Origin: an uncultured Porphyromonadaceae bacterium
Lineage (GTDB): Bacteria; Bacteroidota; Bacteroidia; Bacteroidales; Muribaculaceae
Direction of reading: 5' to 3'
NCBI GenBank assembly: GCA_947177185.1
Contig: CAMWTJ010000006.1
Location: 1 to 64,000 of the forward strand
Length of the DNA stretch: 64,000 nt
Part shown: in pieces, positions 2,544 through 19,418 of the stretch
How positions within the stretch are numbered: position 1 is the first letter of the stretch
How the letters are laid out: each line of letters starts with the position of its first letter
The notes under the pieces: model-generated
Databases searched by the model: none
What the model saw: the letters and a program-made list of their open reading frames with translations, nothing else
Told to the model about the DNA's origin: nothing
Position numbers and translations under genes: made by a program

Positions 2544-5047
2544 TTTTTGGAATTAATGGTTATCGAAGCCGGACGGAGCCCTGCGGCCGTGGCGTCAAGC
2601 ACTGCCGGGCCGGAGGCTCCTGCATTGTTCTGAAGGATAATGAGCGCGCGGCCATAGAACGCCTTGCGGGTATCGGCCTTGAAGCGTTCGAGAGATATGG
2701 GGCTGCCGTTGTCGACACCGGCATTGAAAGCCGAACCGCTGACAGTGAAGGCTATCTCGTTGTCGGCCCACGGGCAGAGGTTGCCGTCGCTGTCGACCAC
2801 TTCCACGGCCACGTAGCTCAGGTCGGTGCCGTCGGCAGCTATCTCGCTGCGGTCGGGCGTCAGGCGTATGGCAGCGGGGGCACCGGCGGTGCGGCGCTCG
2901 GCACGGGCCACCTCTACACCGTCGCGCCGACTCACGGCCGTAAGCACGCCGGGGCTGAACGGCACACGCCAGCTGACATGAAAGTCGTCGCGACCCTTGC
3001 TGCGGGTGCCGAGGCTCTCGCCGTTGAGGAAGAGTTCCACCTCGTCGGCGTTGTTGTAGTATGCCCACACGTCGACTTCGCTGCCTTCGGTCCAGTTCCA
3101 GTGCGGAAGCAGATGCAGCACCACCGAGTCGGGACACCACTCGCTCTTATACATATAGTATATGTCTTTCGGAAATCCGGCGAGGTCGACAATGCCGAAA
3201 TAGCTGCTGCGCGCCGGCCAGCCGTAGGGAGTGGGCTCGCCTATGTAGTCGAAGCCGGTCCAGACGAACTGCCCGGAAATGAAATCGTTGTCGCGCACAT
3301 GACGCATGGTGCCTTCGTGGGTGTTGCCCCAGGGCACGTGGCAGTTGTCGTAGCTCGAGCATGAGAACGAGTCGTTGAAGAAGGGCTTGTCCCAGCGCTC
3401 CGGCCAAAGGCGGATGCTGTCGGAAGGCATGTCGTAGAAGCCGCGGGTAGCGAGTCCCGATACGCTTTCGGTGACAATAAAGGGCTTGCCGGGGAAATTG
3501 GAAGGCACTCCGGCAAACCAGTCGTCGTGGTAGTTGAAACCGATTATGTCGAGCGCGCCGCTGCGGAAGAGATGGTTGCCCGGATCGGGCTCGTTGCATC
3601 CGGCGGTGACAGGACGCGTGGGGTCGAGCGAGCGCACGCGGTCGGCAAGTTTGCGAGTAAGCAGCGAGTTGACGCTCATCTCTCCCTCGGCGGCAAGGTT
3701 TTCTTTGCCATGTCCGAAATTAAGAATCAGATTGGCCTCCTCGAGGCTCAGGGTATCGGCCGCGGCGTCGGTCCACTGCTCAAGCACCTCGTTGCCGATA
3801 CTCCATATAATAATCGACGGATGGTTGCGGTCGCGGCGTATGAGGTCGTCCATGTCGCGTTCGTGCCATTCATTGAAATAACGCGAATAGTCGTGGGCGG
3901 TCTTCTTTTTCCGCCACATGTCGAACGTTTCGTCCATCACCATAAGGCCCATCCTGTCGCAAAGCTCGAGAAGCTCCGGCGCGGGCGGGTTGTGCGACGA
4001 GCGTATGGCGTTGACACCCATGTCTTTCATGATCTGCAGCTGGCGCTCTATGGCGCGGCGGTTGACCACGGCTCCGAGTGCGCCGGCATCGTGGTGCAGA
4101 CACACGCCGTTGATTTTCATGCGCCGTCCGTTGAGTGAGAAACCGTTGCGGGCGTCGAACTCAAAGTAGCGGAAGCCTACAGGCTGCTCGTACGTGTCGA
4201 GCACGCGGCCACGCGCATCGGTCACTTTGGTGACGAGCGTGTACAGGTAGGGCGACGCAGGGCTCCAAAGACGGGGTTTCGCCACGCTGATTTCAGAGTC
4301 CACCGTCAGCTCGGAATCATTTTTTTTCGCACTCACGGTCTTGGCGCCGGACTCCGCGACCACAGCACCGGCGGCGTCGAGAAGCGCAGCGCTCACGCTC
4401 ACCTTAGCCTTGCGCCGGAAAGCCAGCTGTGTGGCCACACGCACGGTGGCGCGGGCGCTGTCGACCTCGGCTATGATGTGCTGTCCCCACAGCGGCACAT
4501 GCACATCGGAGAGCGTGCGCAGCCACACGTTGCGGTATATGCCGCAACCGCTGTACCAGCGCGAGTTGGGCTGCTCGGCATTGTCGACGCGCACAGCCAC
4601 CACATTGCGCCCCGCATGCAGATAGGGTGTGATATCGTAGCTGAACGAAGCGTAGCCGTAGGGGCGCGTGCCGAGTTTGTGGCCGTTGACATACACGGTG
4701 GCGTTCATATACACACCGTCGAAATCAATATAGGTGTATTTTTTAAGTTGTGCAGGTTCGACATCAAACGATTTCCGATACCAGCCCACACCGCCGGGGA
4801 GTGCTCCGCCGCCTGTACCGCTGGGATTGTCGATACTGAAATCGCCTTCTATGGCCCAGTCGTGAGGCAGCGAGAGCGCACGCCAGTCGGCATCGTCAAA
4901 ATCGGCGCGTGCGGCGTCGGGTGTATCGCAAAGGCTGAATTTCCATCCGTCGTTGAAACTTACCGCGCGGCTGTCGGCACCATAGGCCGACAGTACCGCG
5001 ACAGCAGTCACCACAAATACTATAAATAACCTGTTGAGAAAAACCAT
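2540..5047 (-). CDS. GH2 family beta-galactosidase-like glycoside hydrolase
   Basis: 835 residues with an N-terminal hydrophobic signal (LFIVFVVTAVAVLSAYGADS). Domain order is GH2 sugar-binding jelly roll (about 30-190), immunoglobulin-like domain (about 195-300), TIM barrel (about 300-600), and C-terminal DUF4982-like and Ig-like domains. Signatures are SSHNPPAPELLELCDRMG, the acid/base Glu in IIIWSIGNEV (near residue 419) and the nucleophile Glu in PFIVTESVSG (near residue 526). In xyloglucan loci a GH2 enzyme removes side-chain beta-galactose, which fits the alpha-xylosidase upstream; beta-glucuronidase activity is the alternative. Two stem-loops lie just upstream of its start. Confidence 0.92.
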   Translation of the reverse strand: MVFLNRLFIVFVVTAVAVLSAYGADSRAVSFNDGWKFSLCDTPDAARADFDDADWRALSLPHDWAIEGDFSIDNPSGTGGGALPGGVGWYRKSFDVEPAQLKKYTYIDFDGVYMNATVYVNGHKLGTRPYGYASFSYDITPYLHAGRNVVAVRVDNAEQPNSRWYSGCGIYRNVWLRTLSDVHVPLWGQHIIAEVDSARATVRVATQLAFRRKAKVSVSAALLDAAGAVVAESGAKTVSAKKNDSELTVDSEISVAKPRLWSPASPYLYTLVTKVTDARGRVLDTYEQPVGFRYFEFDARNGFSLNGRRMKINGVCLHHDAGALGAVVNRRAIERQLQIMKDMGVNAIRSSHNPPAPELLELCDRMGLMVMDETFDMWRKKKTAHDYSRYFNEWHERDMDDLIRRDRNHPSIIIWSIGNEVLEQWTDAAADTLSLEEANLILNFGHGKENLAAEGEMSVNSLLTRKLADRVRSLDPTRPVTAGCNEPDPGNHLFRSGALDIIGFNYHDDWFAGVPSNFPGKPFIVTESVSGLATRGFYDMPSDSIRLWPERWDKPFFNDSFSCSSYDNCHVPWGNTHEGTMRHVRDNDFISGQFVWTGFDYIGEPTPYGWPARSSYFGIVDLAGFPKDIYYMYKSEWCPDSVVLHLLPHWNWTEGSEVDVWAYYNNADEVELFLNGESLGTRSKGRDDFHVSWRVPFSPGVLTAVSRRDGVEVARAERRTAGAPAAIRLTPDRSEIAADGTDLSYVAVEVVDSDGNLCPWADNEIAFTVSGSAFNAGVDNGSPISLERFKADTRKAFYGRALIILQNNAGASGPAVLDATAAGLRPASITINSKK

Positions 5048-5159: not shown

Positions 5160-8042
5160 CTACAGACGCACGCTCACAGATTTGCCGTCGTAGTCGACGG
5201 GTGTGCCTTTGGCTTCGCGGCTGAAACCTACGGGGGAGTCGGGGCTTACTTTTATCACGTTGAAGCGACGGTTCTTGAGCATGCCGGGGAACTCGCCCAC
5301 GCGCTCGCCGATGGTGAGCGTGCCGGTAGCGTCATTCCACTCCATGGGTATGTTGGCGAAAGCGCCTTTCTCGTAGTTGTAGTTGAGGTTTTCGTCCTCA
5401 TAGAGAGTGAAGGAACCGTCGGCGCCGGTGTAGACGTAGAGGTCGATGAGTTCGGCGGGTTTCTCGGCGCTCCACTGCATGTCGGGACCGACGGGCACTA
5501 TCGAGCCGGCGGCCACAAAGAGCGGCATACGGCCGTAGGGAGCTGCCACAGCGGCCTTTTCTCCGCCGTCGCGAGCCGCGCCGGTGTAGAAATCATACCA
5601 GCGGATGCCGGCCGGGAAATATACCTCGCGTTCGCGGGCACCGTACTCCGTGACGGGAGCAGCCATGAAGGCCGGACCGAACATGAACTGGTCCTTGATG
5701 TCGCGCGTGGCCTTGTCGGCGCCGAAATCCATAACGAGCGGACGCATGATGGTGTAGTCGTCGAAATAGGTCTTGCCGGCAAGCGAATAGATATACGGCA
5801 TCAGGTTGTAGCGCAGACGCGTGTAGTAGAGCATGCTTTCGTAGGCGGGATGGCCTTCGGGAGCTATGTTGTAGATTTCGCGGAAAGGCCACTGGCCGTG
5901 GGCGCGGTAGAGGGGAGCGAACGCTCCGAACTGGAACCAGCGCGTGTTGAGTTCACGCCACTCCTTAAGGTCGGCGTTTTCGCGGCCGGTCTTGTTGAAC
6001 TCCTGCTGAGCGGCCACATAGCGGTCTTCGACGCAGAAGCCGCCGATGTCCATGGTCCAGTAGGGCACGCCGCTGACTGCGAAATTGAGGCCTGCGGCTA
6101 TCTGCGCAGCCATATCCTCCCAGCGGGTGGCTATATCGCCGCTCCAGGTGGCGGTGCTGTAGCGCTGCTGGCCGGCGAAGCCGGAGCGTGTGAGAAGGAA
6201 CACGCGCTTGTCGGGGTCGACGCCGCGCTGGCCGTCGTAGATGGCCTCGGCGTTCATGAGCGCGTAGGCGTTGAAATATTTAGTCGACGGACCGAGGTGG
6301 GTCGGGCCGCAGAGGTCCTTGCGATACTGTATGTCCGTGCAGTCGCGGATGTTGGGCTCGCTGGCGTCCATCCACCATGCGTCGATGCCGAGAGGATAGT
6401 AATGTTCCTCCATCTGATGCCAGAAGAGTTTGCGTGCATCGGGATTGTAGGCGTCGTAGAACGAACCGAGATAGCCGGGGCCTACCCAGTCGCGGATGCT
6501 GTCCTTGACGGCCTGCTGATACATCCATCCTTTTTCGTCGAACTCCTTGTAATGCTCGGTGGTGACGTAGAACTTGGGCCATACGGACACCATCACACGG
6601 CCGTTCATGGCGTGGATGCTGTCGACCATGCCTTTGGGGTCGGGGAAACGCGTCTTGTCAAATTCATGGCAGCCCCACGAGTCCTGCGGCCAGTGCAGCC
6701 AGTCTATCACGATATTGTCGATGGGGATGTTGCGCTTGCGGTATTCGGCGAGTGTGGAGAGCACCTCTTCCTGCGTGTTGTATTTCTCGCGGCTCTGCCA
6801 GTAGCCCATGGCCCATCGGGGCATCACGGGGGCTTTGCCTGTGAGAGTGCGGTAGCCGTGGATCACATCGTCCATGGAGTCGCCGGCTATGAAATAATAG
6901 TCAATCATATCCTGCATCTCACCCCACCAGCTCATATCGTTTTTATTGATATCGGCTTTCGGAGCATATACGCGCAGGCCGCAATATGCCACTCCGCCGT
7001 TGGGCTCCCACTCTATGCGTATCGGGGTGCGCTTGCCGGCCACGAGGGGCACAGTGAACTTGTAGCTGTTGGGGTTCCAGGCTGTGCGCCAGCGTTCGGG
7101 CACCACCAGATTGCCGTCGATATAGACTTTCTGATAGCCGGAATAATAGAGAATGAAATCGAAATCGCCTGTCACGTCGGACTCTATCTCGCCCTCATAG
7201 ACCACTTTCGCACCCTGGAACTTGAAATCCTCGGGAGCGTTGACCACATGGGCAAGGTCGCCGCGCTTCAGATGCTCGAAATAGATTTTATCCTCGCGAC
7301 GGGTCATTTCCTTGCCGTCGGCTTCGGTGTATGTGCCGGTGAGGGCGCCTTCGCGTCCGTCTTTGTCGTACAGTTTGAACGCATCGCCGAGCTGGCTATA
7401 GTCGTCGGGGCGGCCGAAGCGCAGCAGCGAATAGCTATCCCAAAGCAGACCGTAGTTGCCGGAGCTGACCACGAAGGGCACGGAAACTTTGGTATTGTAC
7501 TGAAACAGTTCTTCGTTCAGTCCCTTGTAGTTGAACTCGTTGCTCTGGTGCTGGCCAAGGCCGTAGATGCCTTCTTCGTCGTCGGTCGAGGCAAAAGTCT
7601 GCTGCACAGTGTAGGAGTCCGTGCCTTCGACATTTATGGGCGTAAAGTTGCGGCCGCCGCCGTTTTCGGCGAGTATGAGCTCGCCGTCCTTGCCGTAGAA
7701 GCTCACAGCGCCGTCGGTGGTGCGCACGAGAGCGCTGATTTCGGGAGTGGCGACACGGATAGTGGTGTCAGACTCCTGCTTCACGGAAAAATCCGTATAG
7801 GCCTCCTGCGGGAGCACTACGAGGCTCTCGCCATCGGCAAATCTGCCGTCGGGGGTAGCGCTTACACGGATGATTTTAGGACCGAGCACCTGGAGGCGCA
7901 CCTTTGTGGCGCCACCGGCTTTGTCGGGGTCGACTTTGACAGTTACGCTCTGGCCATCCTTCGTATAGGCTCCCGAACAGCCGGCCAGAAAGGTCGGCAG
8001 CGAAAGGCCAAGTGCCATGAGCGACAATGTGCGTAGTTTCAT
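5160..8042 (-). CDS. GH31 alpha-xylosidase with PA14 insert, lipoprotein
   Basis: 960 residues. The N-terminus has a lipoprotein signal with lipobox FLAGC. After the N-terminal beta-sandwich there is a PA14-like insert (about 225-385; FDFILYYSGYQKVYIDG, IEWEPNGGVAYCGLRVYAP). The GH31 barrel has the nucleophile Asp in AWWMDASEPN (near 559) and the acid/base Asp in ATWSGDIATRW (near 635). C-terminal beta-domains follow. A PA14 insert in a GH31 enzyme of this size is the architecture of the characterised Bacteroides ovatus xyloglucan alpha-xylosidase BoGH31A, so xylose removal from xyloglucan oligosaccharides is the likely role (inference from architecture). First gene of the leftward unit GH31-GH2-GH3. 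Confidence 0.92.
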   Translation of the reverse strand: MKLRTLSLMALGLSLPTFLAGCSGAYTKDGQSVTVKVDPDKAGGATKVRLQVLGPKIIRVSATPDGRFADGESLVVLPQEAYTDFSVKQESDTTIRVATPEISALVRTTDGAVSFYGKDGELILAENGGGRNFTPINVEGTDSYTVQQTFASTDDEEGIYGLGQHQSNEFNYKGLNEELFQYNTKVSVPFVVSSGNYGLLWDSYSLLRFGRPDDYSQLGDAFKLYDKDGREGALTGTYTEADGKEMTRREDKIYFEHLKRGDLAHVVNAPEDFKFQGAKVVYEGEIESDVTGDFDFILYYSGYQKVYIDGNLVVPERWRTAWNPNSYKFTVPLVAGKRTPIRIEWEPNGGVAYCGLRVYAPKADINKNDMSWWGEMQDMIDYYFIAGDSMDDVIHGYRTLTGKAPVMPRWAMGYWQSREKYNTQEEVLSTLAEYRKRNIPIDNIVIDWLHWPQDSWGCHEFDKTRFPDPKGMVDSIHAMNGRVMVSVWPKFYVTTEHYKEFDEKGWMYQQAVKDSIRDWVGPGYLGSFYDAYNPDARKLFWHQMEEHYYPLGIDAWWMDASEPNIRDCTDIQYRKDLCGPTHLGPSTKYFNAYALMNAEAIYDGQRGVDPDKRVFLLTRSGFAGQQRYSTATWSGDIATRWEDMAAQIAAGLNFAVSGVPYWTMDIGGFCVEDRYVAAQQEFNKTGRENADLKEWRELNTRWFQFGAFAPLYRAHGQWPFREIYNIAPEGHPAYESMLYYTRLRYNLMPYIYSLAGKTYFDDYTIMRPLVMDFGADKATRDIKDQFMFGPAFMAAPVTEYGAREREVYFPAGIRWYDFYTGAARDGGEKAAVAAPYGRMPLFVAAGSIVPVGPDMQWSAEKPAELIDLYVYTGADGSFTLYEDENLNYNYEKGAFANIPMEWNDATGTLTIGERVGEFPGMLKNRRFNVIKVSPDSPVGFSREAKGTPVDYDGKSVSVRL

Positions 8043-8076: not shown

Positions 8077-8084
8077 CAAATTTA
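8077..8084 (-). promoter_or_regulatory. -7 element for the GH31-GH2-GH3 unit
   Basis: On the minus strand the sequence TAAATTTG matches the Bacteroides -7 consensus TAnnTTTG, 35 nt before the GH31 ATG. No TTTG -33 element occurs at the usual 19-21 nt spacing; the nearest TTTG is 27 nt upstream, at the edge of the proposed operator. A missing -33 box is compatible with activator-dependent transcription. Confidence 0.55.
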
Positions 8085-8114
8085 GCAATACACGCGCGAA
8101 CGCAGGGGGTGCAA

Positions 8115-8143
8115 ATGTTAACTGCTGGGGATTGAAATGTTAT
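8115..8143 (+). promoter_or_regulatory. candidate operator of the hybrid two-component regulator (copy 1)
   Basis: The motif ATGTTAACTG-N8-TGAAATGTTAT occurs here and, on the opposite strand, at 12209-12237. Both ATGTTA cores are 22 bp apart, about two helical turns, as expected for a dimeric AraC-type DNA-binding domain reading direct repeats. It lies 30 bp upstream of the -7 element of the GH31 gene and overlaps the stop codon of the regulator gene. Function is inferred from the shared sequence, orientation and placement. Confidence 0.6.
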
Positions 8144-11100
8144 TTGCCTTCGTTTTCCTGATATACCGACGGCAATACTCCGAACTCCTCCTTGAAATAG
8201 CGGCTGAAATACTTTGGATTATTGAATCCGCAGCGATAGGCTATCTCGCTTATGTTGAGCTGACTTTCGCGCAGCAGTTGCGCCGAACGCTTGAGTCTGA
8301 GCAGGCGTATGAACTCTATAGGCGTCTTGCCGGTGATCTGCTTGAGGCGCTTGTACAGATGCACACGGCTCATGCCGAGCTCGGCGGCCAGTTCCTCTAC
8401 AGACAGGTCGGTGCGGGTCATATGGTCGTCGATATAGCGCACGGCGCGCTCAATGAGTTTCTCGTCCAGCGACGTGATGTCGAGGCTCTCGGGCTCGGGG
8501 TCAATCAGCGCCCTGCGGGCTCCGAGCCTGCGCAGCTCGAGCAGCTTTTTCAGACGCAGGCGCAGCTCCGTAATGTTGAACGGCTTCGTCATGTAGTCGT
8601 CGGCTCCGAGCGTAAGTCCTTCTATCTTGGCTGCAACATCGTGTTTCGCGGTCAGTATGAGCAGAGGTATGGCGGCTGTGTCTTGGCTGCTTTTCAGGCG
8701 TCGGCACAGCTCTACGCCGTCCATTTCGGGCATCATAAGGTCGCTCACAATCACATCGGGAGCAAACACCGGCACCTCGTCCATGGCGCGGGCGCCGTCG
8801 GGCGCCGTGGCCACGGCATACTCGCCGGAAAGCTCGCCGGCAATAAATTTCAGCAGGTCGGGATTGTCGTCCACCACAAGCAGACGAGGCTTGGCGGACT
8901 GCTGAGGTTCGGCCTCGGCCTCCGCTCCGGCGGCAGCGGGCTCAACACCTGCGCTCTCGCCGCTTATGGGCATGCGCACAATGAACACGGCGCCGCGCAC
9001 GGCATTGTCGGCCACGGCCACCGTGCCGCCGTGCAGACGCACGTATTCGGCCACCAGGCTGAGGCCGATGCCTGTGCCGCCGCCGGCGCTGCGGCCGCCG
9101 TCCGACTGGTAGAAGCGCTCGAATATGCGCTTCTTGTCCTCGTCGCTCACTCCGCAGCCGCTGTCGGCCACGCGCAGCTCGAACTCGCCGTCCACCACTC
9201 CCAGCGACACGTCCACGCGGCCGTTTTCGGGAGTGAATTTAAACGCGTTGCCGAGCAGGTTCATCAGTATTTTGTTCATCTTGTCCTCGTCGAAATCCAT
9301 CATGAGCGAGGGCACCGAACTGAAAAATGTGAGATGTATGTGCTTCGATTCGGAAAACGAGCGGAAGCCTTCGCAGACTCCGCGTACAAAACGCACCACA
9401 TCGCCGCGCGACGAGTCAAGCGTCAGACCCGTCACCTCGTTTTTGCGGAAGTCGAGCAGCTGATTGACTATATTGAGCAGCCTGTCGGCATTTCCGCTTA
9501 TTATCTTGAGCTTCTCACGGGAGTCGTCGTCGAGCGGTTTCTTCAGCAGCGATTCGAGCGGAGCGGTGATAAGGGTCAGAGGTGTGCGCAATTCGTGGCT
9601 CACGTTGGTAAAGAACCTGAATTTCAGCTGGTCGAGCTCTTCCTGCTTGCGCACCGCCTCAAGCCGCTCGCGACTGCGGGAGAGTCGGCGCTCGTGTCGC
9701 CGCACGAGCACAAAGGCCAGGAAGCCGGCGGCCAGCACCAGCACCGCATAGAGCAGTTTCGCGCCTGTGGTGGCATAGAACGGCGGACGTATCTCGATGC
9801 CGAGCGACGCTACGTTGGCAGACGCCACGCCATCGCCGCTCACCGCCTTTACATGAAGCGTATAGCGCCCGGGGGCGAGATTGGTGTAAGCCACATTGTT
9901 CACTCCGGCCGGAAGCACGCGCCACTCCTCGCTGAAACCGTCGAGGCGGTAATGATACACCGTCTTTTCGGGATTCACATAGTCGTCCGTGGCGAAATAT
10001 ATGCAGAATTCATTGTCGCTGTAGTCGAGTTTTATGGCGTCCTGATGCGAAAGGCGCTCCTCCAGCACCACTCGCCCGTAGCGCTCCTCCCCCACCCTCA
10101 CCGGGTGGTTGAAAAGCGAAAGCCCCGTGAAGTACACGTGCGGCTCGGTGGTGCCGAACTTGAGTCCGTCGGGGCGGAAGCTGTTCACTCCGTAAAAGCC
10201 GCCCACCATCATCTCGCCGTCGGGCAGAGCACACAGCGAGCGCTGGTTGAAATCGCAAGTCTGCAAGCCGTCGCTGCTGTCGTAGGCATGAATATCGAAA
10301 TCCCAGGCGTTGCCATCGGCCGAAGCGCTCACACCTATGCCTATAAGCTGACTTCCGGCGCTCACCCACACCGTGTGGGTGGCATCCTCGGCCACACCGA
10401 GCACAAAGCGCCGCAGGCCGCCAGCGTTCACGCTGTAGATGCTGTCGGCCGAGGGGTCGTAGACGTTCAGTCCGTCGCGGGTGGCCACCCACACCAGCCC
10501 GCGGCTGTCGCACATCACGTCGTTGATATTGTCGTTGTCGAAGCGCTGCGTGCCGCGACGATTGCCTGCGAGCGGCGAAAGGTCGTTGCGGGCGGCATCG
10601 TACACGGCCATTCCGCTGGAAGTGCCTATGTAATACAAGCCGTCGCGCGCCTGCGAGATACTGCTCACATAATCGGAGCCTATCGGCGAATTGGACGAGT
10701 TGAACACCGTGGAGCGCCCCGTGACCGGGTCGAAACGCTGAAGGCCGCCGCCCAACGTGGCAAGCAGCAGCGTGCCGTCGTCCATCGGGCGTATGCCCCA
10801 CACATTGTCGCACGCGAGGCCCCCCTCTGTGGTGATTCGCGAAAGGCGCCCCGAGGGGTCGATTTTCAGCAGGCCGCCATTGTAGGTACCTCCCCACAGT
10901 GTGCCGTCGGCACCGGCTGTCAGCGCCACCACGGCGTCGGGGCGCTTTCCGGCGCGCGCCACGTCCACATAGCGCTTCTCGCCGGTGGCGCGATTCCAGG
11001 CTATCAGGCCGCTGCCGTCAGTTCCGAGCCATATGGTGCCGTCGAGGGCGGGCAGTATGCAGTTGACATCGGGGAACGACGTGAAATCAAACTTAAACGC

Positions 11101-12105
11101 GGCGTCATTGTACGTCGACACGCCGTTCTTTCGGGAGCCTACCCACATCGTTCCGCTTCGGTCCTGCATGAGGGCCGTCACGGTGTTGCTGGCCAGCGCG
11201 CGGTCATCGCCGGTCACTGAAGCGATGCGCGTGTATTTCCCGGAGCGGTCCAGCACCGCGATGCCATCGTGGTCGAAACCAATCCATATGCGCCCCTGGT
11301 GGTCCTGTGTGATGCACTTTATGTTGCCTTGTGGCAGCGGCGTACCGCCCGGCGCGTCGAGCCACACGCCGGTGTCGGGATTGTAGAGCCACAGCCCATA
11401 GTCGGAATACACCCACACCAGCCCGTCGCGGTCCACAAACGCCGTGTACACATGGTCGCCGGCGCTGTCGCCACCGGGCACGGAGGTGGCGCCGCATATG
11501 CGCGACGAGCGTGTGTCGACGAACGTCAACCTTCCACTCTCGTCAATAGCGAGGAGGCGGTCGGTCCCGGCGCTTGTCAGCTCATATATCCTGCGCCGCG
11601 TCAGCCGCCCGTCGGGGTCGTCGATGCGCTGCGTGCGGCCGTTTCGGTGCCGAAACAGGCCTATGCCGTCAATCGCCGCCCAGCAAGACCCGTCGCTCCC
11701 GAAGGTGACAAACGACGGAACGGCCTCCAGGCCCATGCGCGCGTACACGCCATCCATGTTCTTCTGAAAACGCTCTGTGGACGGATTGAACACAGAGTAC
11801 GAGCCGCCGGCCCGCACCCACAGCTGCCCGTCGGGCGCCCGCAGTATCTCCTCCACATAGTTGTCGTGTATCGACGTCGAATCGTCGTCGTCGCGCACAT
11901 AGGTACGCACGCTGTAGCCGTCGTAGCGGTCGAGCCCCGACGCCGTGCCTATGTAGATAAACCCGTCGTCGTCCTGATAAAACACATTCACCAGCTTACT
12001 CGAAAGGTTCATCCCGGGGGGCATATGCCGGAACTGATAGCCTGCTGCCGAAGCACCGGCCACCGCCAGCATCTGGAGCAGAATAAGCAAGACAGCTTTT
12101 TTCAT
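8140..12105 (-). CDS. hybrid two-component system sensor/regulator (HTCS)
   Basis: 1321 residues in a single chain. A signal peptide leads into a periplasmic sensor of Reg_prop-type beta-propeller repeats (to about residue 690), then a Y_Y_Y domain (about 695-775), one membrane helix (about 779-798, LLYAVLVLAAGFLAFVLV), HisKA with the phospho-acceptor His in NVSHELRTP (near 837), HATPase_c (GTGIGLSLV), a receiver domain with phospho-Asp in VIVSDLMMPEMDG (near 1120), and an AraC-type HTH ending in GFNNPKYFSRYFKEEFG. All catalytic residues looked for are present. HTCS proteins sense oligosaccharide in the periplasm and activate the adjacent PUL. Placement between two divergent PUL arms, each with the shared 29-bp motif, supports local control. 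Confidence 0.97.
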   Translation of the reverse strand: MKKAVLLILLQMLAVAGASAAGYQFRHMPPGMNLSSKLVNVFYQDDDGFIYIGTASGLDRYDGYSVRTYVRDDDDSTSIHDNYVEEILRAPDGQLWVRAGGSYSVFNPSTERFQKNMDGVYARMGLEAVPSFVTFGSDGSCWAAIDGIGLFRHRNGRTQRIDDPDGRLTRRRIYELTSAGTDRLLAIDESGRLTFVDTRSSRICGATSVPGGDSAGDHVYTAFVDRDGLVWVYSDYGLWLYNPDTGVWLDAPGGTPLPQGNIKCITQDHQGRIWIGFDHDGIAVLDRSGKYTRIASVTGDDRALASNTVTALMQDRSGTMWVGSRKNGVSTYNDAAFKFDFTSFPDVNCILPALDGTIWLGTDGSGLIAWNRATGEKRYVDVARAGKRPDAVVALTAGADGTLWGGTYNGGLLKIDPSGRLSRITTEGGLACDNVWGIRPMDDGTLLLATLGGGLQRFDPVTGRSTVFNSSNSPIGSDYVSSISQARDGLYYIGTSSGMAVYDAARNDLSPLAGNRRGTQRFDNDNINDVMCDSRGLVWVATRDGLNVYDPSADSIYSVNAGGLRRFVLGVAEDATHTVWVSAGSQLIGIGVSASADGNAWDFDIHAYDSSDGLQTCDFNQRSLCALPDGEMMVGGFYGVNSFRPDGLKFGTTEPHVYFTGLSLFNHPVRVGEERYGRVVLEERLSHQDAIKLDYSDNEFCIYFATDDYVNPEKTVYHYRLDGFSEEWRVLPAGVNNVAYTNLAPGRYTLHVKAVSGDGVASANVASLGIEIRPPFYATTGAKLLYAVLVLAAGFLAFVLVRRHERRLSRSRERLEAVRKQEELDQLKFRFFTNVSHELRTPLTLITAPLESLLKKPLDDDSREKLKIISGNADRLLNIVNQLLDFRKNEVTGLTLDSSRGDVVRFVRGVCEGFRSFSESKHIHLTFFSSVPSLMMDFDEDKMNKILMNLLGNAFKFTPENGRVDVSLGVVDGEFELRVADSGCGVSDEDKKRIFERFYQSDGGRSAGGGTGIGLSLVAEYVRLHGGTVAVADNAVRGAVFIVRMPISGESAGVEPAAAGAEAEAEPQQSAKPRLLVVDDNPDLLKFIAGELSGEYAVATAPDGARAMDEVPVFAPDVIVSDLMMPEMDGVELCRRLKSSQDTAAIPLLILTAKHDVAAKIEGLTLGADDYMTKPFNITELRLRLKKLLELRRLGARRALIDPEPESLDITSLDEKLIERAVRYIDDHMTRTDLSVEELAAELGMSRVHLYKRLKQITGKTPIEFIRLLRLKRSAQLLRESQLNISEIAYRCGFNNPKYFSRYFKEEFGVLPSVYQENEGK

Positions 12106-12139
12106 AGCGGAGGTTACATAAGGATTGTCAAATCTATTG

Positions 12140-12170
12140 CAAATTTAACTTATTTACCCCTCGACTGAAA
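12140..12170 (-). promoter_or_regulatory. promoter of the HTCS gene
   Basis: On the minus strand TAAATTTG (12147-12140) fits the -7 consensus and is preceded, after exactly 19 nt, by TTTC (12170-12167) at the -33 position. The half-site TGAAATGTTA at 12166-12175 overlaps the -33 box, so the regulator may bind its own promoter (inference). Confidence 0.6.
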
Positions 12171-12208
12171 TGTTAACGCGCATGTTGTATAACATAAAAC
12201 GGAAAAAT

Positions 12209-12237
12209 ATAACATTTCATATACCTCCAGTTAACAT
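12209..12237 (-). promoter_or_regulatory. candidate operator of the hybrid two-component regulator (copy 2)
   Basis: The minus strand reads ATGTTAACTG-GAGGTATA-TGAAATGTTAT. All 21 fixed positions match the copy at 8115-8143, where the central eight bases are different. Relative to the gene it precedes (SusC), it points the same way as copy 1 relative to GH31. It is 49 bp upstream of the SusC -33 box. An additional palindromic ATGTT-N4-AACAT lies at 12182-12195. Confidence 0.65.
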
Positions 12238-12286
12238 CGCTCGCCTGCGCTTCTACATTCTATACCGCTGTAGGCAACATATCGTA

Positions 12287-12317
12287 TTTGCATATTTTAA
12301 ATAATCGCGTAACTTTG
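12287..12317 (+). promoter_or_regulatory. SusC promoter (-33 and -7)
   Basis: TTTG at 12287-12290 and TAACTTTG at 12310-12317 are 19 nt apart, matching the Bacteroides sigma-ABfr consensus (TTTG, 19-21 nt, TAnnTTTG). Transcription would start near 12324, leaving an untranslated leader of about 105 nt before the SusC ATG. The 12106-12428 gap holds this promoter, the HTCS promoter and the operator; no other gene is seen in it. Confidence 0.75.
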
Positions 12318-12428: not shown

Positions 12429-15400
12429 ATGGGACAAACACATTGCAATCGTCACCGTTGGCATAGCTCCATCCGAGCCATGCTGCTGGCTTTAAGCATG
12501 TTGATAGGGGGGGTCTTTTCCGCTAACGCGCAATCGCTGACCGTCACGGGCACCGTGACCTCGGCCGCCGACGGCGAACCCCTTATCGGCGCTTCCGTCA
12601 CTGTGAAAGGCGCCAAGGACGGCGTAACCACGGACATTGACGGCAACTACACCATCAAAGTCAGCCAGGGTGCGACTCTGACCTTTTCCTACATCGGCTT
12701 CACCGCCCGCGAAATCAAAGTGACCGGCAACCGCCTCGACGTAGCTCTTTCGGAAAACTCCGAAAGCCTAAACGAGCTCGTGGTGGTCGGCTACGGTGTG
12801 ATGAAGAAAAAACTCGTGACCGGCGCCACCGCGCAGATCAAGGGCGACGACATCGCCAAGATGAACACCACATCGCCCCTTCAGGCCATGCAGGGCCAGC
12901 TCCCCGGCGTCAACATCAGCTCCAACTCCGGCCAGCCCGGCTCGAGCATGAAGGTACAGATTCGCGGCCTCGGCACCATCGGCAACGCCAATCCTCTCTA
13001 CCTCATTGACGGCGTAGGCGGCGACATCTCCACCCTCAACCCCGCCGACATCGAAAGCATCGACGTGCTCAAGGACGCAGCATCCGCCGCCATCTACGGC
13101 GCGCAGGCTGCCAACGGCGTAGTGCTCATTACCACTAAGCAGGGCCGCGAAGGCAAAGCCACCGTCACCTTCGACGGTTACTTCGGATGGCAGAGCGCTG
13201 CCAAGAAGGTCGACATGCTCAACGCACAGCAGTACATGACCATCATGGACGAGCAGATGATAGCCGAAGGCTCCGCTCCCTACGACTGGGCATCCATGAA
13301 CAGCATCTGGCGCACCGACGCCGAAGGCAACCGCCTGGGCGTGTATGATACCGACTGGGTAGACTCCATGTTCAAGGACAACGCCACCACGCAGAGCTAC
13401 ACCATCGGCGTGACCGGCGGCAACAGCACCAGCACATACGCTCTCAGCCTCGGCTACCTCAACCAGGAAGGTATCGCCGGCGGCAAAGACGTCAGCGACT
13501 ACTCCCGCTACAATTTCCGTATCAACTCCGACCACAAGCTCTTCAACGGCATACTCACCGTGGGCGAGCAGGCCAGCTTCGTATATGTGAAGAGCACAGG
13601 CATAGGCGTGGGCAACCAGTACAACAACACCCTGCGCGGCGCTTTCGGCACATCGCCCCTCTCTCCCATATATAATAATGAAGGCGAGTTCAACAACACG
13701 AGCAACAGCGACTGGAACAATGCCGACGGCAACCCCTACGGCGCAATGATGGTGAACACCAACAACCGCACCAAGAACGCCACTTTCTCCGGCAACGTAT
13801 ACGCCCAGCTCGAACCCATCAAGAACCTGAAGATACGCACCGTGTTCGGCGCAGTCTACGGCTCCAGCGAATACCGCAAATACAGCCCCACCTACAGCTT
13901 CTCGATCTACAACTACAGCGACCACACCAGCGTAAGCCAGAACATGAACCACAGCCTGGGCATGACATGGACCAACACCGTGAGCTACGACTGGAACATC
14001 AAGGATCACGCGTTCAACGCCCTGCTCGGTATGGAAGCCTACCGCTACGAAGGCACCTACCTCGGCGCCAACCAGCGCGACCTTAAAGAAGGTTTCGACA
14101 CATGGCCCTACGCCTGGATCAACAACGGCACGGCAGCAACTACTGCCGACGGCCTCAGCGCCAACGGCAACCCGCACGACGACAGCCGCTCCGTCAGCTA
14201 TTTCGGCCGTATCGGATGGAACTGGAAAGAAAAATACATGATCAACGTGACAGTGCGTTCTGACGGCTCTTCCAAATTTGCCAGCGGCCACCGCTTCGGC
14301 ACCTTCCCCTCGGTTTCCGCAGGTTGGAACATCAGCAACGAAAACTTCATGGAAGGCACGCGCACATGGCTTGACTACCTGAAAATACGCGGCAGCTGGG
14401 GCCAGGTCGGCAACCAGAACATAGCCAACTACCGCTACCTCGCTCCCATCAAGGTGAGCAACACCCACTATTTCTTCGGACAGTACATGGGCGCCAACGG
14501 TGCCTACGGCGACTACTCCACCATCCTCGGCAACAACTGGGGTGCATATCCCAGCCGCCTCGGCAACCTCGACCTCACTTGGGAAACTTCCGAGCAGCTC
14601 GACTTCGGCTTCGACGCCACCTTGCTTAAGAACCGCCTGCGCGTAAACTTCGACTGGTACCGCAAGAGCACCAAGGACTGGCTCGTGGAAGCACCCGTGC
14701 TCGCCACCGCCGGCACCGACAGGCCCTTCATCAACGGCGGCGACGTAGTCAACACCGGCGTCGAACTCGGCATCGCCTGGAACGACGTAATCGGCGACGA
14801 TTTCTCCTACAGCATCTCTGCCAACGGCGCCTACAACAAAAACAAAGTAGGCTCCATCCCCACCGAGGACGGCGTAATCAAGGGTGAAACCGGACAGCTC
14901 TACGACAACTCGCCCGTGTTCTACCAGGCATCCAACGGCCAGCCCATCGGCTATTTCTGGGGCCTCCAGACTGCCGGTATCTTCCAGAACCAGAAAGAAA
15001 TCGACGAATGGATTGCAGCCGGCAACGGTATCCTTCAGAACAACGTGAAGCCCGGCGACGTCAAGTTCGTGGACCAGAACCACGACGGCCTTATCAACAC
15101 CGACGACAATGTGAACCTCGGCAACGGCATACCCAAATTCACATTCGGCTTCAACATCAATCTGTTCTACAAGAATTTCGACCTCGGCCTGACCGCCACA
15201 GGCGCTGCCGGCAACAAAATCGTGCAGGCATACCGCAACCAGACCAACATGAAGGCCAACTACACCACCGAAATACTTGACCGCTGGACCGGCGAAGGCA
15301 CCAGCAACAAGATTCCGCGCGTGACCAATACCAACACCAACTGGCAGTTCTCCGACCTCTACGTGCACGACGGCGACTACCTGCGCCTCAGCAACCTCAC

Positions 15401-15626
15401 GTTCGGCTACAACTTCGCACCCATCATGAATCAGAAATGGTGCTCGCAGTGCCGCCTCTATTTCCAGGTGCAGAACCTTGCCACTTTCACCAAGTACAAC
15501 GGCATGGACCCCGAAATCGGTTACGGTCCCGAAGACTCCAACAACAACAGTTGGGTGAGCGGCGTCGACCTCGGCTACTACCCGCGTCCCCGCACGTTCC
15601 TCATCGGCGTAAACCTCACGCTCTAA
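12429..15626 (+). CDS. susC: SusC-like TonB-dependent oligosaccharide transporter
   Basis: 1065 residues. A signal peptide ending in FSANAQ is followed by a carboxypeptidase-regulatory-like domain (about 38-115, VTGTVTSAADGEPLIGASV), the SusC-specific ELVVVGYG segment, the plug (about 125-225, with QIRGLGTIGNANPLYLIDG) and a 22-strand-type barrel ending in the aromatic-terminated segment RTFLIGVNLTL. The length is normal for the family. It forms the outer-membrane channel that works with SusD, 39 nt downstream, to import glucan oligosaccharides. Codon use is strongly biased to C-ending codons, as in highly expressed genes. Symbol denotes family only. Confidence 0.96.
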   Translation: MGQTHCNRHRWHSSIRAMLLALSMLIGGVFSANAQSLTVTGTVTSAADGEPLIGASVTVKGAKDGVTTDIDGNYTIKVSQGATLTFSYIGFTAREIKVTGNRLDVALSENSESLNELVVVGYGVMKKKLVTGATAQIKGDDIAKMNTTSPLQAMQGQLPGVNISSNSGQPGSSMKVQIRGLGTIGNANPLYLIDGVGGDISTLNPADIESIDVLKDAASAAIYGAQAANGVVLITTKQGREGKATVTFDGYFGWQSAAKKVDMLNAQQYMTIMDEQMIAEGSAPYDWASMNSIWRTDAEGNRLGVYDTDWVDSMFKDNATTQSYTIGVTGGNSTSTYALSLGYLNQEGIAGGKDVSDYSRYNFRINSDHKLFNGILTVGEQASFVYVKSTGIGVGNQYNNTLRGAFGTSPLSPIYNNEGEFNNTSNSDWNNADGNPYGAMMVNTNNRTKNATFSGNVYAQLEPIKNLKIRTVFGAVYGSSEYRKYSPTYSFSIYNYSDHTSVSQNMNHSLGMTWTNTVSYDWNIKDHAFNALLGMEAYRYEGTYLGANQRDLKEGFDTWPYAWINNGTAATTADGLSANGNPHDDSRSVSYFGRIGWNWKEKYMINVTVRSDGSSKFASGHRFGTFPSVSAGWNISNENFMEGTRTWLDYLKIRGSWGQVGNQNIANYRYLAPIKVSNTHYFFGQYMGANGAYGDYSTILGNNWGAYPSRLGNLDLTWETSEQLDFGFDATLLKNRLRVNFDWYRKSTKDWLVEAPVLATAGTDRPFINGGDVVNTGVELGIAWNDVIGDDFSYSISANGAYNKNKVGSIPTEDGVIKGETGQLYDNSPVFYQASNGQPIGYFWGLQTAGIFQNQKEIDEWIAAGNGILQNNVKPGDVKFVDQNHDGLINTDDNVNLGNGIPKFTFGFNINLFYKNFDLGLTATGAAGNKIVQAYRNQTNMKANYTTEILDRWTGEGTSNKIPRVTNTNTNWQFSDLYVHDGDYLRLSNLTFGYNFAPIMNQKWCSQCRLYFQVQNLATFTKYNGMDPEIGYGPEDSNNNSWVSGVDLGYYPRPRTFLIGVNLTL

Positions 15627-15665: not shown

Positions 15666-17321
15666 ATGAATAAGTTCAAATACAGCATATTATCTGCCGG
15701 TATCGCCGCCATGGGCCTCATGACGGGTGCCTGTGCCGACAGTTTCTTGGATGTATCGAGCAAAACCGAATCGAACACCGAGAATTTCTATAAAACCGAA
15801 GGCGACGCCTGGCGCGCGCTTATCGGATGCTACGACGGCTGGCGCCAGATCAGCTCCAACCCCGGCGTAGGATTCTACGTGGCTTCTACAATCCTCTCTG
15901 ACGAGTGCTACGGAGCCACAGGCCAGGGCGACCAATACGAGTACCAGATAATCGACGGTTTCGACCTGAGCAAAGATGCCAGCAAGCAGGACCTGTATCT
16001 CCAGGACTGGAAAGTGTACTACGCCGGAGTGTACCGCTGCAACGAGCTCTGCGCACACGAAGACCAGATAAACTGGGACAGCGAAAGCGGAAACCGGGCC
16101 CTCTACATGGGCGAGTGTCGCGCTCTGCGCGCCCTGCTCTACTTCGACATGGTGCGCCTGTGGGGCAACATACCTCTCTTCCTTGAGCCCGTCAACGAAA
16201 ACCGCGAGCCGGCCAACCCGGACGAAGTGTACGCAGCAATCGTCAACGACCTCAAATTCGCTGCCGAAAACATCCCAGCCGGTGCCAACCTTGGCGCCAG
16301 CAACAACGGACGCATCACCCGCTACGCCGCCGAGGCCATGCTCGCACGCGTCTACCTCTTCTACACCGGCTATTATGGCAAAGACCTCGCAGGCCTGACC
16401 CGCGAGGAGGTGCTCGGCTATCTCGAGGATGTAGTGGCCAACGGCGGCTACTCGCTCGTGCCCGAGTTCAAAAGCCTCTGGCCCGCAGCATCGCTCGTGC
16501 CCGCAGAAGGCAAGAACGAGTGGGACCCCGAGCTTTCCACCTACGCCGGCGAAGCCAACAGCGAGTTCATACTGCAGCAGAAATTCACACCCACCCAGGA
16601 CTACAACGGCAACAACGACTCCAACCGATGGCAGGTGATGATGGGCATGCGTCAAATCAATTTCTCGCCCTACGGCAAGGGATGGGGAGCAGCCACCGTC
16701 ACCCCGGCCTACATCAACAAATTCGTCGCCGGCGACAAGCGTCTGACTGCTTCCGTAATCAACCTTGCCACAGAAGGCGTCACCTCCGCAGCCGATTTCA
16801 GCACCGGCTATAAGGACTGGCGCGAATACACCGGCTACTGCGTGAAGAAATACTCGCCCATCGCCTTCCCCGACGGCCTGAACGCATCGCGCCCCGACGG
16901 CAGCGGCGACTTCCAGATTACCAACGCTCAAAACTGGGTAATCATGCGCTATGCCGACGTGCTCCTCATGGTGGCCGAACTCGGCGGCGTGCCCTCTATG
17001 AGCGCACAGGCCGCTCTCGACGCCGTGCGCGAACGCGCAGGCCTCACCCCCGTGCCCGCCACTCTCGAGAACGTAATGAACGAACGCGCTGTCGAACTCG
17101 CTTTCGAAGGCCACCGCTACTGGGACCTCCTGCGTCAGGGCATCGACAAGGCCGCCGACGCAATCGCCGCCACCGCAGGCCCCGTGAAGACCGCAGGCAT
17201 CGATGCCACCGTAAGCTACAACCACAGCAAGATTGTAGCAACGAAAGGCCTCAGCCAGATTCCCAACAACGAAATCAATCTCTCCAACGGCGTGCTCAAA
17301 CAGAACGCCGGCTGGGAATAA
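15666..17321 (+). CDS. susD: SusD-like surface glycan-binding lipoprotein
   Basis: 551 residues with a lipoprotein signal (lipobox MTGAC) followed by the typical ADSFLDVSSKTE start. Four TPR-like helix pairs carry the SusD signatures ALRALLYFDMVRLWGNIPL (about residues 155-175), AMLARVYLFYTGYYG and the C-terminal NERAVELAFEGHRYWDLLRQG. It lids the SusC transporter at the cell surface and binds polysaccharide. It shares a 39-nt gap with SusC and is followed by a 165-nt gap holding a long stem-loop. The family is certain; the ligand (xyloglucan) is inferred from neighbouring enzymes. Confidence 0.96.
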   Translation: MNKFKYSILSAGIAAMGLMTGACADSFLDVSSKTESNTENFYKTEGDAWRALIGCYDGWRQISSNPGVGFYVASTILSDECYGATGQGDQYEYQIIDGFDLSKDASKQDLYLQDWKVYYAGVYRCNELCAHEDQINWDSESGNRALYMGECRALRALLYFDMVRLWGNIPLFLEPVNENREPANPDEVYAAIVNDLKFAAENIPAGANLGASNNGRITRYAAEAMLARVYLFYTGYYGKDLAGLTREEVLGYLEDVVANGGYSLVPEFKSLWPAASLVPAEGKNEWDPELSTYAGEANSEFILQQKFTPTQDYNGNNDSNRWQVMMGMRQINFSPYGKGWGAATVTPAYINKFVAGDKRLTASVINLATEGVTSAADFSTGYKDWREYTGYCVKKYSPIAFPDGLNASRPDGSGDFQITNAQNWVIMRYADVLLMVAELGGVPSMSAQAALDAVRERAGLTPVPATLENVMNERAVELAFEGHRYWDLLRQGIDKAADAIAATAGPVKTAGIDATVSYNHSKIVATKGLSQIPNNEINLSNGVLKQNAGWE

Positions 17322-17486: not shown

Positions 17487-19325
17487 ATGACAAAATCTTT
17501 CAAATATCTGAGCTACATGCTCGTGGGCGCTGCAGTCGCTGCCACGGCATGGTCCTGCACAGACGAAGACTACAACATGCCCGAGCCCAACATATCTTCG
17601 GAAGAGCTGGTGGAAGGCGTGGCATTCTCCGTAGAGCACGACGCTCAAAACCCCAACATCATCCACCTCACCAGCCTGATGCCCGAGAGCTATCAGGTGG
17701 CGTGGATCACCCCCCAGGGCCGCAAGACGGGCAGCACTGCATCCCTGTCGATTCCCTTCGACGGCACTTATGAGGTGCAGATGGGTGTCGACACCCGCGG
17801 CGGCTACGTGTGGAGCGAACCCTACAGCTTCACTATCGACGAGTTCTGCGCCGATTTCGTGGAACATTTCCTTTGGACGCGCATCAGCGGCGGCGTAGGC
17901 CAGAGCAAGACATGGCAGTTTGACCTCGGTGTGCTCGACGACGGCACCGTCAAGACCACGTGCTGGACCGGTCCCCACTGGTTCTTCACCCCCACCTACA
18001 CATGGGACAACCTCCATGCCGCCAACGAAACCGAAAGCACATACGCCAACTTCAAGGACTCCGACCCCTGGGAAGCCGCATCGGCCATCACTCCGAGCGA
18101 CGAATGGTACTGGGCAGCCGACTACGCCGGCAACAGCTGGATGTGCACCGCACAAAACTACGGTTACATCACATTCGACCTCATCAACGGCGCCAACGTC
18201 ACTGTGACTGACGCCGACGGCAACGTGGTGGGCAAAGGCACTTACATGCTCGACACCGACGCCCACACGGTGACCCTCTCGGACGTATATCCGCTCGAAT
18301 CGACCGACACACGCACGCACGAGCGCTTCCTGCAGCTGCTCTATCTCTCGGACGACGCCATGATGCTGATGGCTCCCTCGGAAGGCGTATCGCTCAACTA
18401 TGTGACCAAAGAATACTTCGAGAACTATGTGGCTCCCACACCCACTGTAATCACTCTTCCCGAAGGCTGGTACGACGCTTTCACCACCCAGATCAAATAC
18501 TCGAGCTGGGCTCTTGATGAAAACGCTCCCTTCGACTGGTACGACCTCGGCGGCGAAGCCAAAAACGGCTTTGAGAGCCTCAGCTCCTACCCTGCCGAGT
18601 TCGCACCCGTGCGCGACGTCATAGACAGCTTCAACATGAACCTCTGCGACCCCGCAGCCGGCCAGTACACCGCCGGCGACGTCACGGGCGCAGTAACCAT
18701 CAGCCCCAAAGGCACCGTCAACCTCTCCGAAGGCCTCGGCGGCATAGCCCTCGGCGGCAGCCTCGTGCGCCTCGAAGGCACCGATTTCAACATAATCACC
18801 GTCACGATGGACGACGCCGGACGCGTGGAAAGCTTCGTACTCGGCCTGCCTCAGACCGACGTCAACGGCACTGTCTACGAATATCTCGGCTACAAGTTCG
18901 TTGCAGACTACGGCGTAGAGAAAAAGACCAAATACCGCTGCGACCTCGCATACGCCAACGGCGATTTCGTATTTGACCACGGAGAACTCTACTTTGACTC
19001 CGACGGCCAGTACAGCATCACGGTCAACATCTCCGACCCCGCCATCTATCTGCTCTACTTCGACATCTTCAAGGTGCTCGGCGACCATCCCAACTTCAGC
19101 CTCACCATCAACGACATCAAGCTCGACGGCAACTCTACCGGCATCACCGACGACGATGTGGAAAAAACCGTAGGCGACGACGCCAAGGACGCACGACGCT
19201 ACATCCTGAACCCCTGGAATCCTGTTTCCGCACCCGTAATCACCCCGAAACTCACCGGCGGAACCAGCATCACAGTCGATTTCACCGCACAGCTTGACTC
19301 GGCCACACCGTGGGTCACTGAATAA
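17487..19325 (+). CDS. PUL surface lipoprotein, probable glycan-binding protein (SusE/F position)
   Basis: 612 residues with a lipoprotein signal (lipobox ATAWSC) followed by acidic residues TDEDYN, a pattern associated with surface export of Bacteroidota lipoproteins. A PKD-like N-terminal domain (about 35-130; TYEVQMGVDTRGGYVWSEPYSFTI) is followed by aromatic-rich beta-sandwich segments, for example TWQFDLG, WTGPHWFFTPTYTWDN and EWYWAADYAGNSW. No catalytic motif is recognised. Position directly after SusD is that of surface glycan-binding proteins (SGBP-A/B, SusE/F). The exact family is not recognised; polysaccharide capture is an inference from position and aromatic content. Confidence 0.8.
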   Translation: MTKSFKYLSYMLVGAAVAATAWSCTDEDYNMPEPNISSEELVEGVAFSVEHDAQNPNIIHLTSLMPESYQVAWITPQGRKTGSTASLSIPFDGTYEVQMGVDTRGGYVWSEPYSFTIDEFCADFVEHFLWTRISGGVGQSKTWQFDLGVLDDGTVKTTCWTGPHWFFTPTYTWDNLHAANETESTYANFKDSDPWEAASAITPSDEWYWAADYAGNSWMCTAQNYGYITFDLINGANVTVTDADGNVVGKGTYMLDTDAHTVTLSDVYPLESTDTRTHERFLQLLYLSDDAMMLMAPSEGVSLNYVTKEYFENYVAPTPTVITLPEGWYDAFTTQIKYSSWALDENAPFDWYDLGGEAKNGFESLSSYPAEFAPVRDVIDSFNMNLCDPAAGQYTAGDVTGAVTISPKGTVNLSEGLGGIALGGSLVRLEGTDFNIITVTMDDAGRVESFVLGLPQTDVNGTVYEYLGYKFVADYGVEKKTKYRCDLAYANGDFVFDHGELYFDSDGQYSITVNISDPAIYLLYFDIFKVLGDHPNFSLTINDIKLDGNSTGITDDDVEKTVGDDAKDARRYILNPWNPVSAPVITPKLTGGTSITVDFTAQLDSATPWVTE

Positions 19326-19342
19326 AAGCAGCGATACAGACA

Positions 19343-19372
19343 GCCGGGCGGCGCCCAATGCCGCCGCCCGGC
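19343..19372 (+). terminator. GC-rich stem-loop between the two surface lipoprotein genes
   Basis: GCCGGGCGGCG (19343-19353) and CGCCGCCCGGC (19362-19372) form a perfect 11-bp stem with an 8-nt loop. It is followed by GTAAACC rather than a U-tract, so termination would be inefficient; a role in 3'-end protection of upstream mRNA segments is the alternative. Confidence 0.45.
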
Positions 19373-19418
19373 GTAAACCAATCAATCTATAATCTGAATC
19401 AAATCCATCGACACAGAT

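Follow-up and report, generated by a model that had tools for sequence, protein, structure and literature searches.

The stretch of DNA analysed here, called the window in the following, comprises 64,000 nucleotides of contig CAMWTJ010000006.1 (positions 1 to 64,000, forward strand) in the assembly GCA_947177185.1 of an uncultured bacterium of the family Muribaculaceae. It contains a gene for a hybrid two-component system (HTCS) located between a susC gene and a gene for a glycoside hydrolase of family 31 (GH31), and the 29-bp sequence ATGTTAACTG-N8-TGAAATGTTAT is found in both promoters flanking the HTCS gene. These two sites are very probably operators of the HTCS encoded between them, the AraC-type domain of which would bind a repeat with a period of 22 bp and thereby activate both flanking operons. 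The features concerned are the following, in order of position.

5160 to 8042, minus strand: GH31 gene; top solved relative of the product is the alpha-xylosidase BoGH31A (5jou)
8077 to 8084, minus strand: predicted -7 box of the GH31 operon, TAAATTTG
8115 to 8143, plus strand: predicted HTCS operator in the promoter of the GH31-GH2-GH3 operon; cores 8115-8120 and 8137-8142, a direct repeat at 22 bp
8140 to 12105, minus strand: HTCS gene, 1321 amino acids, with Reg_prop, Y_Y_Y, HisKA, HATPase_c, receiver and AraC-type helix-turn-helix domains
12140 to 12147, minus strand: predicted -7 box of the HTCS gene, TAAATTTG
12166 to 12177, plus strand: TGAAATGTTAAC, proposed as an extra half-site near the HTCS promoter, unsupported as an operator
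12181 to 12196, minus strand: Crp/Cur-type palindrome TATGTTATACAACATG, agreeing in 13 of the 14 fixed bases with TATGTTnTAnAACATA (one mismatch)
12209 to 12237, minus strand: predicted main HTCS operator in the susC promoter; cores 12232-12237 and 12210-12215, 22 bp apart
12253 to 12280, minus strand: weaker promoter-proximal half-sites, ATGTTG (12275-12280) and ATGTAG (12253-12258), 22 bp apart
12310 to 12317, plus strand: predicted -7 box of susC, TAACTTTG
12429 to 15626, plus strand: SusC-type TonB-dependent transporter (TIGR04056)

The HTCS gene product combines in one chain all the parts by which such a protein is recognised, namely periplasmic sensor repeats, a histidine kinase, a receiver and an AraC-type DNA-binding domain. 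The two 29-bp sites are exact at 8115-8143 on the plus strand and at 12209-12237 on the minus strand, and the preliminary description of this DNA was right in that all 21 fixed bases match, that the cores are 22 bp apart in both sites and that both have the same orientation, the reversed core TAACAT reading toward the downstream gene, GH31 or SusC, in each case. It had further stated that the central eight bases mostly differ. This holds, with two of the eight positions in agreement (CTGGGGAT and GAGGTATA), both agreements being the G of a GG run that relatives conserve. When up to three mismatches were allowed, none of 100 shuffles of the window contained two matches (mean 0.00), and no further match occurs in the window. 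A scan of the whole genome (2,229,081 bases in 82 contigs, an assembly 91% complete) at the same threshold yielded these two sites only and none with the reversed control. On the GH31 side the first core is 30 bp from the GH31 -7 box, and the pair lies at equal distance in the three nearest relatives, L113-L115. On the susC side this distance is 72 bp; a single 21-bp step separates the main pair from the weaker half-sites, which are 29 and 51 bp away from the susC -7 box. The stop codon of the HTCS gene (8140-8142) falls within the GH31 operator, so that coding end and operator place constraints on each other.

Searches with the HTCS gave hits in 6 of 49 genomes of the genus at E values of at most 1e-200 and in 34 of 397 genomes of the family at a threshold of 1e-250. 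Twenty-five related loci, assigned by gene order without a tree, were taken together with the window to a set of 26. Two regions were cut from each, one ranging from the HTCS start to the upstream neighbour and the other from the HTCS stop to GH31. The related loci are 24 of 32 fetched stretches plus L033; the eight excluded stretches (L129, L130, L137, L138, L139, L142, L143, and L144) have another gene order, a paralogous HTCS or a missing flank. In 21 of the 26 loci the upstream neighbour is SusC, with an identity of 43% in L120 and L124 and of at least 67% elsewhere. A different divergent gene is found in L123, L134, and L136, and in L140, with the neighbour unassigned, 500 bp were taken. 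The GH5 neighbour in L033 is co-oriented with the HTCS gene, and no divergent promoter is therefore expected there.

The unit conserved in these loci is a 22-bp direct repeat of half-sites of about 16 bp (GGnnTnAAATGTTA). The bare core ATGTTA, which involves no training, occurs with at most one mismatch as a pair at 22 bp in the predicted orientation in 15 of 25 regions upstream of the HTCS gene and in 11 of 25 regions between HTCS and GH31. Other spacings from 10 to 40 bp or the other strand gave at most 5 of 25, and 100 shuffles gave means of 0.15 and 0.07 with maxima of 2 and 1. Half-site matrices derived from one of the two regions and applied to the other peak at 22 bp as well, by 7.3 and 8.0 standard deviations (sd). 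Lesser signals appear at 43 bp (2.8 and 1.4 sd), 21 bp (2.4 and 1.9 sd) and 64/65 bp (1.5 and 1.4 sd), the last not exceeding what unrelated spacings give, for example 10 bp (1.5 and 1.0 sd). A pair scoring at least 15 is present in 48 of the 52 regions, with a maximum of 10.2 in 520 shuffled regions; a first null from random segments (maximum 32.0) was set aside because the segments could overlap a true site. The 48 pairs have the consensus GGnntnAAATGTTAacTtatanGGtaTaAAATGTTA, and as the GG run before the second half is conserved, the N8 spacer is not free. The comparison of related loci proposed in the preliminary description thus came out as expected, the pair at 22 bp recurring on both sides of the HTCS gene at the predicted position and in the predicted orientation, which supports the assignment to this HTCS. 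The motif as defined there proved over-specified at 21 bases: GG, AAATGTTA and the 22-bp period are conserved, the flanks ACTG and TGAA are not.

The pair also keeps its distance from the promoter. TAnnTTTG is the -7 element of Bacteroides; the search for it covered 150 bp on the target strand, and the gap was counted between the box and the first core of the best pair. In 22 of the 26 regions upstream of the HTCS gene, the window included, this gap is 71-74 bp, and bins of 6 bp that start below 60 or above 81 bp contain no more than two regions each; the exceptions are L117 and L033, which have no box, and L131 and L135 at 84 bp. On the GH31 side the gap is 71-74 bp in 17 of 26 regions, 30 bp in four (the window and L113-L115), 19 bp in three, 51 bp in one and unassigned in the last. 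The mean half-site score one step closer to the promoter is raised by 4.0 sd upstream of the HTCS gene, where the signal comes mostly from loci with the Cur palindrome (4.4 versus 2.1 sd without), and by 2.7 sd on the GH31 side. Since an unrelated offset, -77, also reaches 2.7 sd, a ladder of half-sites beyond the main pair is suggestive, not proven. A test of the distance as a general rule, on 15 loci with SusC near a distant HTCS, found a recognisable -7 box in only three.

For the distribution over genomes a profile of 38 bp was used in two versions, R1 built from 43 of the 48 pair sites scoring at least 15 (both sites of L124, both of L128 and the GH31 site of L134 were left out) and R2 from the 35 sites outside the own genus. 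Scoring was done per genome with stricter filters on the best 137 first-look candidates (genus) or the best 17 (family), which makes absence less certain than presence. In the own genome R1 matches 8108-8143 (E 1.9e-5), three unlinked places called C55 (3.7e-5), C45 (4.5e-5) and C9 (0.005), 12209-12238 (0.02) and, at the weaker susC half-sites, 12255-12284 (0.09), with two matches above 1. R2 matches 8108-8143 at 1.8e-4, the weaker half-sites marginally (12255-12285, E 0.21) and 12209-12237 only at 2.8. Within the genus R1 and R2 at E values up to 0.05 match the same 4 of 49 genomes, which are those with an HTCS at least 60% identical, and none of the other 45 gave a match among their best 137 candidates. 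In the family R1 at 1e-3 matches 21 of 397 genomes, namely 20 of the 34 bearing the HTCS and one of 363 others (best 17 candidates each). The lone match outside the 34 (G073) is surrounded by GH31 and an HTCS of 36% identity. At this threshold 23 of the 25 matches over the 397 genomes lie beside an HTCS gene, the other two being C55 and C45 of the own genome; among the best 17 candidates of each of the other 396 genomes there was no match away from an HTCS. Training sites came from most of the matching genomes, none of them from G073, G080, G117, and G229; in the last three the matches are again beside the HTCS. The preliminary description had counted many random matches elsewhere as evidence against its motif. 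Such matches are mostly missing, yet the three unlinked sites remain.

Several results weigh against assigning the two sites to this HTCS. The susC-side site scores weakly by itself, with an E value of 0.02 for R1, which was trained on it, and 2.8 for R2, and it therefore rests on the exact repeat, the position and the local conservation. Two genus genomes with an HTCS of 42-43% identity (G004 and G015) have no match at 0.05 among their best 137 candidates, and 14 of the 34 HTCS genomes have none at 1e-3 among their best 17; these candidate lists underlie all the negative genome results. The eight excluded stretches were scanned with R1 only: three match at 0.05 (L138, L139, and L144) and L130 only at 0.18, and R1 gave no match up to 0.5 in L129, L137, L142, and L143. 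L188, which is not one of the eight, likewise has none. The three GH31 regions of 26 with a 19-bp gap (L121, L122, and L127) have a poor first half. DNA-binding domains of paralogous HTCSs in other genomes are 62-69% identical (L137, L138, L142, and L144), and matches occur at two of these four loci; the motif is therefore not private to one orthologous group and may be shared by related HTCSs. Finally, the unlinked sites C55, C45, and C9 are not explained by the polysaccharide utilization locus (PUL) to which the HTCS belongs.

The unlinked sites bear on the alternative that the main regulator binding at the two sites is a different AraC-type or HTCS protein encoded in this genome, which is improbable. 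The only other full HTCS detected, C6:71015-73168 (L143, L190), lies on the same contig beyond the window together with GH43 and SusC relatives, and with an assembly of 91% completeness a regulator may be missing. The DNA-binding domain of this second HTCS, however, is 40% identical to that of the window HTCS, the R1 scan found no match at its locus, and in the 49 genus genomes matches are seen only where the window HTCS is present (best 137 candidates per genome). The three unlinked copies of the repeat are at L159 10549-10581 (C55), L160 1559-1591 (C45) and L161 9440-9472 (C9). Those of C45 and C9 are correctly oriented, with a -7-like box at distances of 54 and 53 bp (one mismatch in C45), and precede secreted-looking proteins, which would suit another regulator as well. 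C55 has nearly the same promoter sequence with a gap of 54 bp (hand count), its gene lying beyond the contig end. Of the 48 other genus genomes only G033 has a homolog of the C9 protein, and no site lies upstream of that copy. All three may be additional targets of the HTCS or may belong to another factor. Near the three promoters there are G-tracts of 10, 10, and 7, which might be phase-variable.

Less probable still is that the sites belong to the global regulator Crp/Cur. The consensus of BT4338 (Crp/Cur), wwwTATGTTnTAnAACATAwww (PMC6989115, PMC3878776), has the half-site TATGTT, which resembles the core, and the palindrome at 12181-12196 starts 20 bp past the second core; of its A/T flanks only the upstream one fits. 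At up to one mismatch the palindrome is found in 10 of the 26 regions upstream of the HTCS gene and in none of 30 shuffled sets, beginning 20-22 bp past the second core in the related loci, and at eight places genome-wide (one with the reversed control). The one Crp-family gene detected in the genome by an HTH_Crp_2 match (L150 1486-2184, 232 amino acids) has a like palindrome directly upstream (2201-2216), just past a -7-like box. This suggests autoregulation; BT4338 and its orthologs are described with such a palindrome upstream of their own gene (PMC3878776). Against the assignment of the 29-bp sites themselves to Crp/Cur it counts that both are direct repeats without a palindromic partner, that profile matches track the presence of the HTCS, and that none of the 26 GH31-side regions contains the palindrome at up to two mismatches. 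The sequence 12190-12195, considered as a third HTCS half-site, was rejected as being one half of this palindrome; it is the source of part of the 43-bp matrix signal. Least probable of all, the two copies might stem from recent local duplication or chance similarity without function, as there are only two in the genome and both are beside one gene, but their spacers differ where the cores match, and recurrence at 22 bp and at set promoter distances in loci with an HTCS 41-68% identical already contradicts this.

All 10 loci bearing the palindrome have it 113-115 bp from the divergent -7 box. The HTCS -7 box is 32-33 bp away in five of them, which would fit Cur acting mainly on the HTCS gene, but in the other five this second distance varies from 43 to 66 bp, and in view of the fixed distance to the divergent box this possibility is not favoured. 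Cur binding was reported as not found upstream of the HTCS gene roc or the PUL gene BT4299, both of which need Cur (PMC10294740); Cur can therefore act on PULs indirectly, which speaks against a general role.

As to the HTCS promoter itself, the preliminary description had placed a further half-site there, TGAAATGTTAAC at 12166-12177. This was not borne out by the nearest relatives, the TTAACAT being kept in L113 and altered in L114 and L115, that is, kept in one of three. As an operator it was also rejected on position, since it is 22 bp (hand count) from the HTCS -7 box compared with 30, 52, or 73 bp at most other sites. At 12140-12160, over the HTCS -7 box, a GGGG run precedes a GTTA that resembles a half-site, an arrangement common, with variations, to the window and L113-L115; the GTTA might be an autoregulatory half-site.

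With the two sites taken as operators of the HTCS between them, the best-supported course of events would be the following. The periplasmic signal sensed by the HTCS would presumably be a xyloglucan oligosaccharide. The AraC-type domain of the protein would bind the 22-bp direct repeat with about two DNA turns per step, so that two protomers would sit on one face of the DNA. In this way the HTCS would switch on susCD with the enzyme genes that follow, and in the opposite direction GH31-GH2-GH3. At susC the strong pair is 72 and 94 bp from the -7 box with weaker in-phase half-sites at 51 and 29 bp, and along these the bound HTCS may reach RNA polymerase. With a Crp/Cur-type site one further step on the far side, a single promoter may respond both to the sensed glycan and to global carbon status. 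This can tentatively be extended to a composite switch of rigid geometry, which is possible but for now rather doubtful. Counted from the -7 box it would have a ladder of about 21.5 bp with positions at 30, 52, 73, and 94 bp and Cur at 113-115 bp; the HTCS would spread along it and touch Cur on the same face, and both the glycan and carbon limitation would be needed. The GH31 operator would have moved two ladder steps in the window and its three nearest relatives, and in this species the HTCS would also control the three unlinked promoters, of which at least two (C45 and C9) precede secreted-looking proteins. Confidence in both readings is held down by the use of best-candidate lists, by paralogous loci that carry the motif too, and by the weakness of the ladder statistics.

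An AraC-family direct repeat with an upstream CRP site is known from the Escherichia coli araBAD promoter; sensor and polymerase differ from those considered here, and the HTCS pair lies further from the promoter. Closer to the present case are the HTCS motifs published for Bacteroides thetaiotaomicron by Ravcheev et al. 2013, which are direct repeats averaging 21 bp, with binding of HTCS protomers two helix turns apart proposed for such motifs generally (PMC3878776). The sites described here resemble them in being two-site direct repeats with a spacer, about two turns in period, upstream of PUL genes near the HTCS and found via orthologous loci, and differ in the period of 22, the conserved GG in the spacer, the set distance to the -7 box and the extra in-phase half-sites. 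Xyloglucan is not mentioned in the main text of that paper. A fragment of the HTCS BT0366 of an arabinan PUL shifts promoter regions on both sides of its own gene, and predicted BT0366 and BT4338 sites are boxed in Figure S3 of the same work (PMC5061871). HTCS and Crp/Cur sites in one PUL therefore have a precedent, the HTCS and the glycan being different ones from those here. The likeness to the Crp/Cur (BT4338) system lies in the 13 of 14 fixed bases at 12181-12196 and the palindrome upstream of the own Crp-family gene, the difference in that 10 of 26 loci keep the palindrome at a fixed distance from both the divergent promoter and an HTCS operator. In the literature searched, with few subscription journals and no supplements, neither a xyloglucan HTCS operator nor a set HTCS promoter distance was found. 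The type of operator is thus already known, and the promoter geometry and the HTCS-Cur spacing look new. HTCSs are major switches of PULs in gut Bacteroides (PMC11253607); the analysis yields a consensus, a distance rule, and an HTCS-Cur spacing open to mutational testing, and points to a possible meeting place of glycan sensing and global carbon status.

The remaining genes of the cluster concern the glycan. The SusC side reads SusC, SusD, two proteins without a confident Pfam match, GH5 with a BACON domain, GH43, GH97, and PfkB. In addition to those already given the features are these.

309 to 5047, minus strand: GH3 (309-2543) and GH2 (2540-5047), downstream of GH31
15666 to 17321, plus strand: SusD-type lipoprotein
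21668 to 23356, plus strand: GH5 with BACON domain; nearest solved structures are Cel5D entries (5oyc, 6ha9), next an exo-xyloglucanase (4w8a) and 3zmr

The gene set of a xyloglucan locus is present, comprising SusC, SusD, the GH31 alpha-xylosidase, the GH5 relative of xyloglucanases, GH2, GH3, and GH43. As the GH31 is closest to BoGH31A and the GH5 is close to Cel5D, the exo-xyloglucanase and 3zmr, the locus is assigned to the xyloglucan type, and xyloglucan is the predicted glycan of the PUL. The xyloglucan locus of Bacteroides ovatus contains SusCD, GH31, GH5 with BACON, GH2, GH3, and GH43 plus an HTCS. The same gene types are present here together with GH97 and PfkB, the likeness being one of gene content, with BoGH31A (5jou) and the GH5 3zmr matched. 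The two proteins without a confident Pfam match (17487-21566, 612 and 715 amino acids) are at the usual position of surface glycan-binding proteins.

A last observation concerns the receiver of the HTCS. S/CHIP is present in most HTCSs, and deviation from it has been linked to loss of the inhibitory contact between receiver and DNA-binding domain (PMC11253607). At 8665-8676 (HTCS residues 1144-1147) the loop reads AAIP and not S/CHIP, so that this mark of the inhibitory interface is lacking, a pattern that would be in line with loss of the contact. The HTCSs of related loci deviate in like manner: in the 25 loci the search pattern found no match in four, and one of the remaining 21 has H at the second position.

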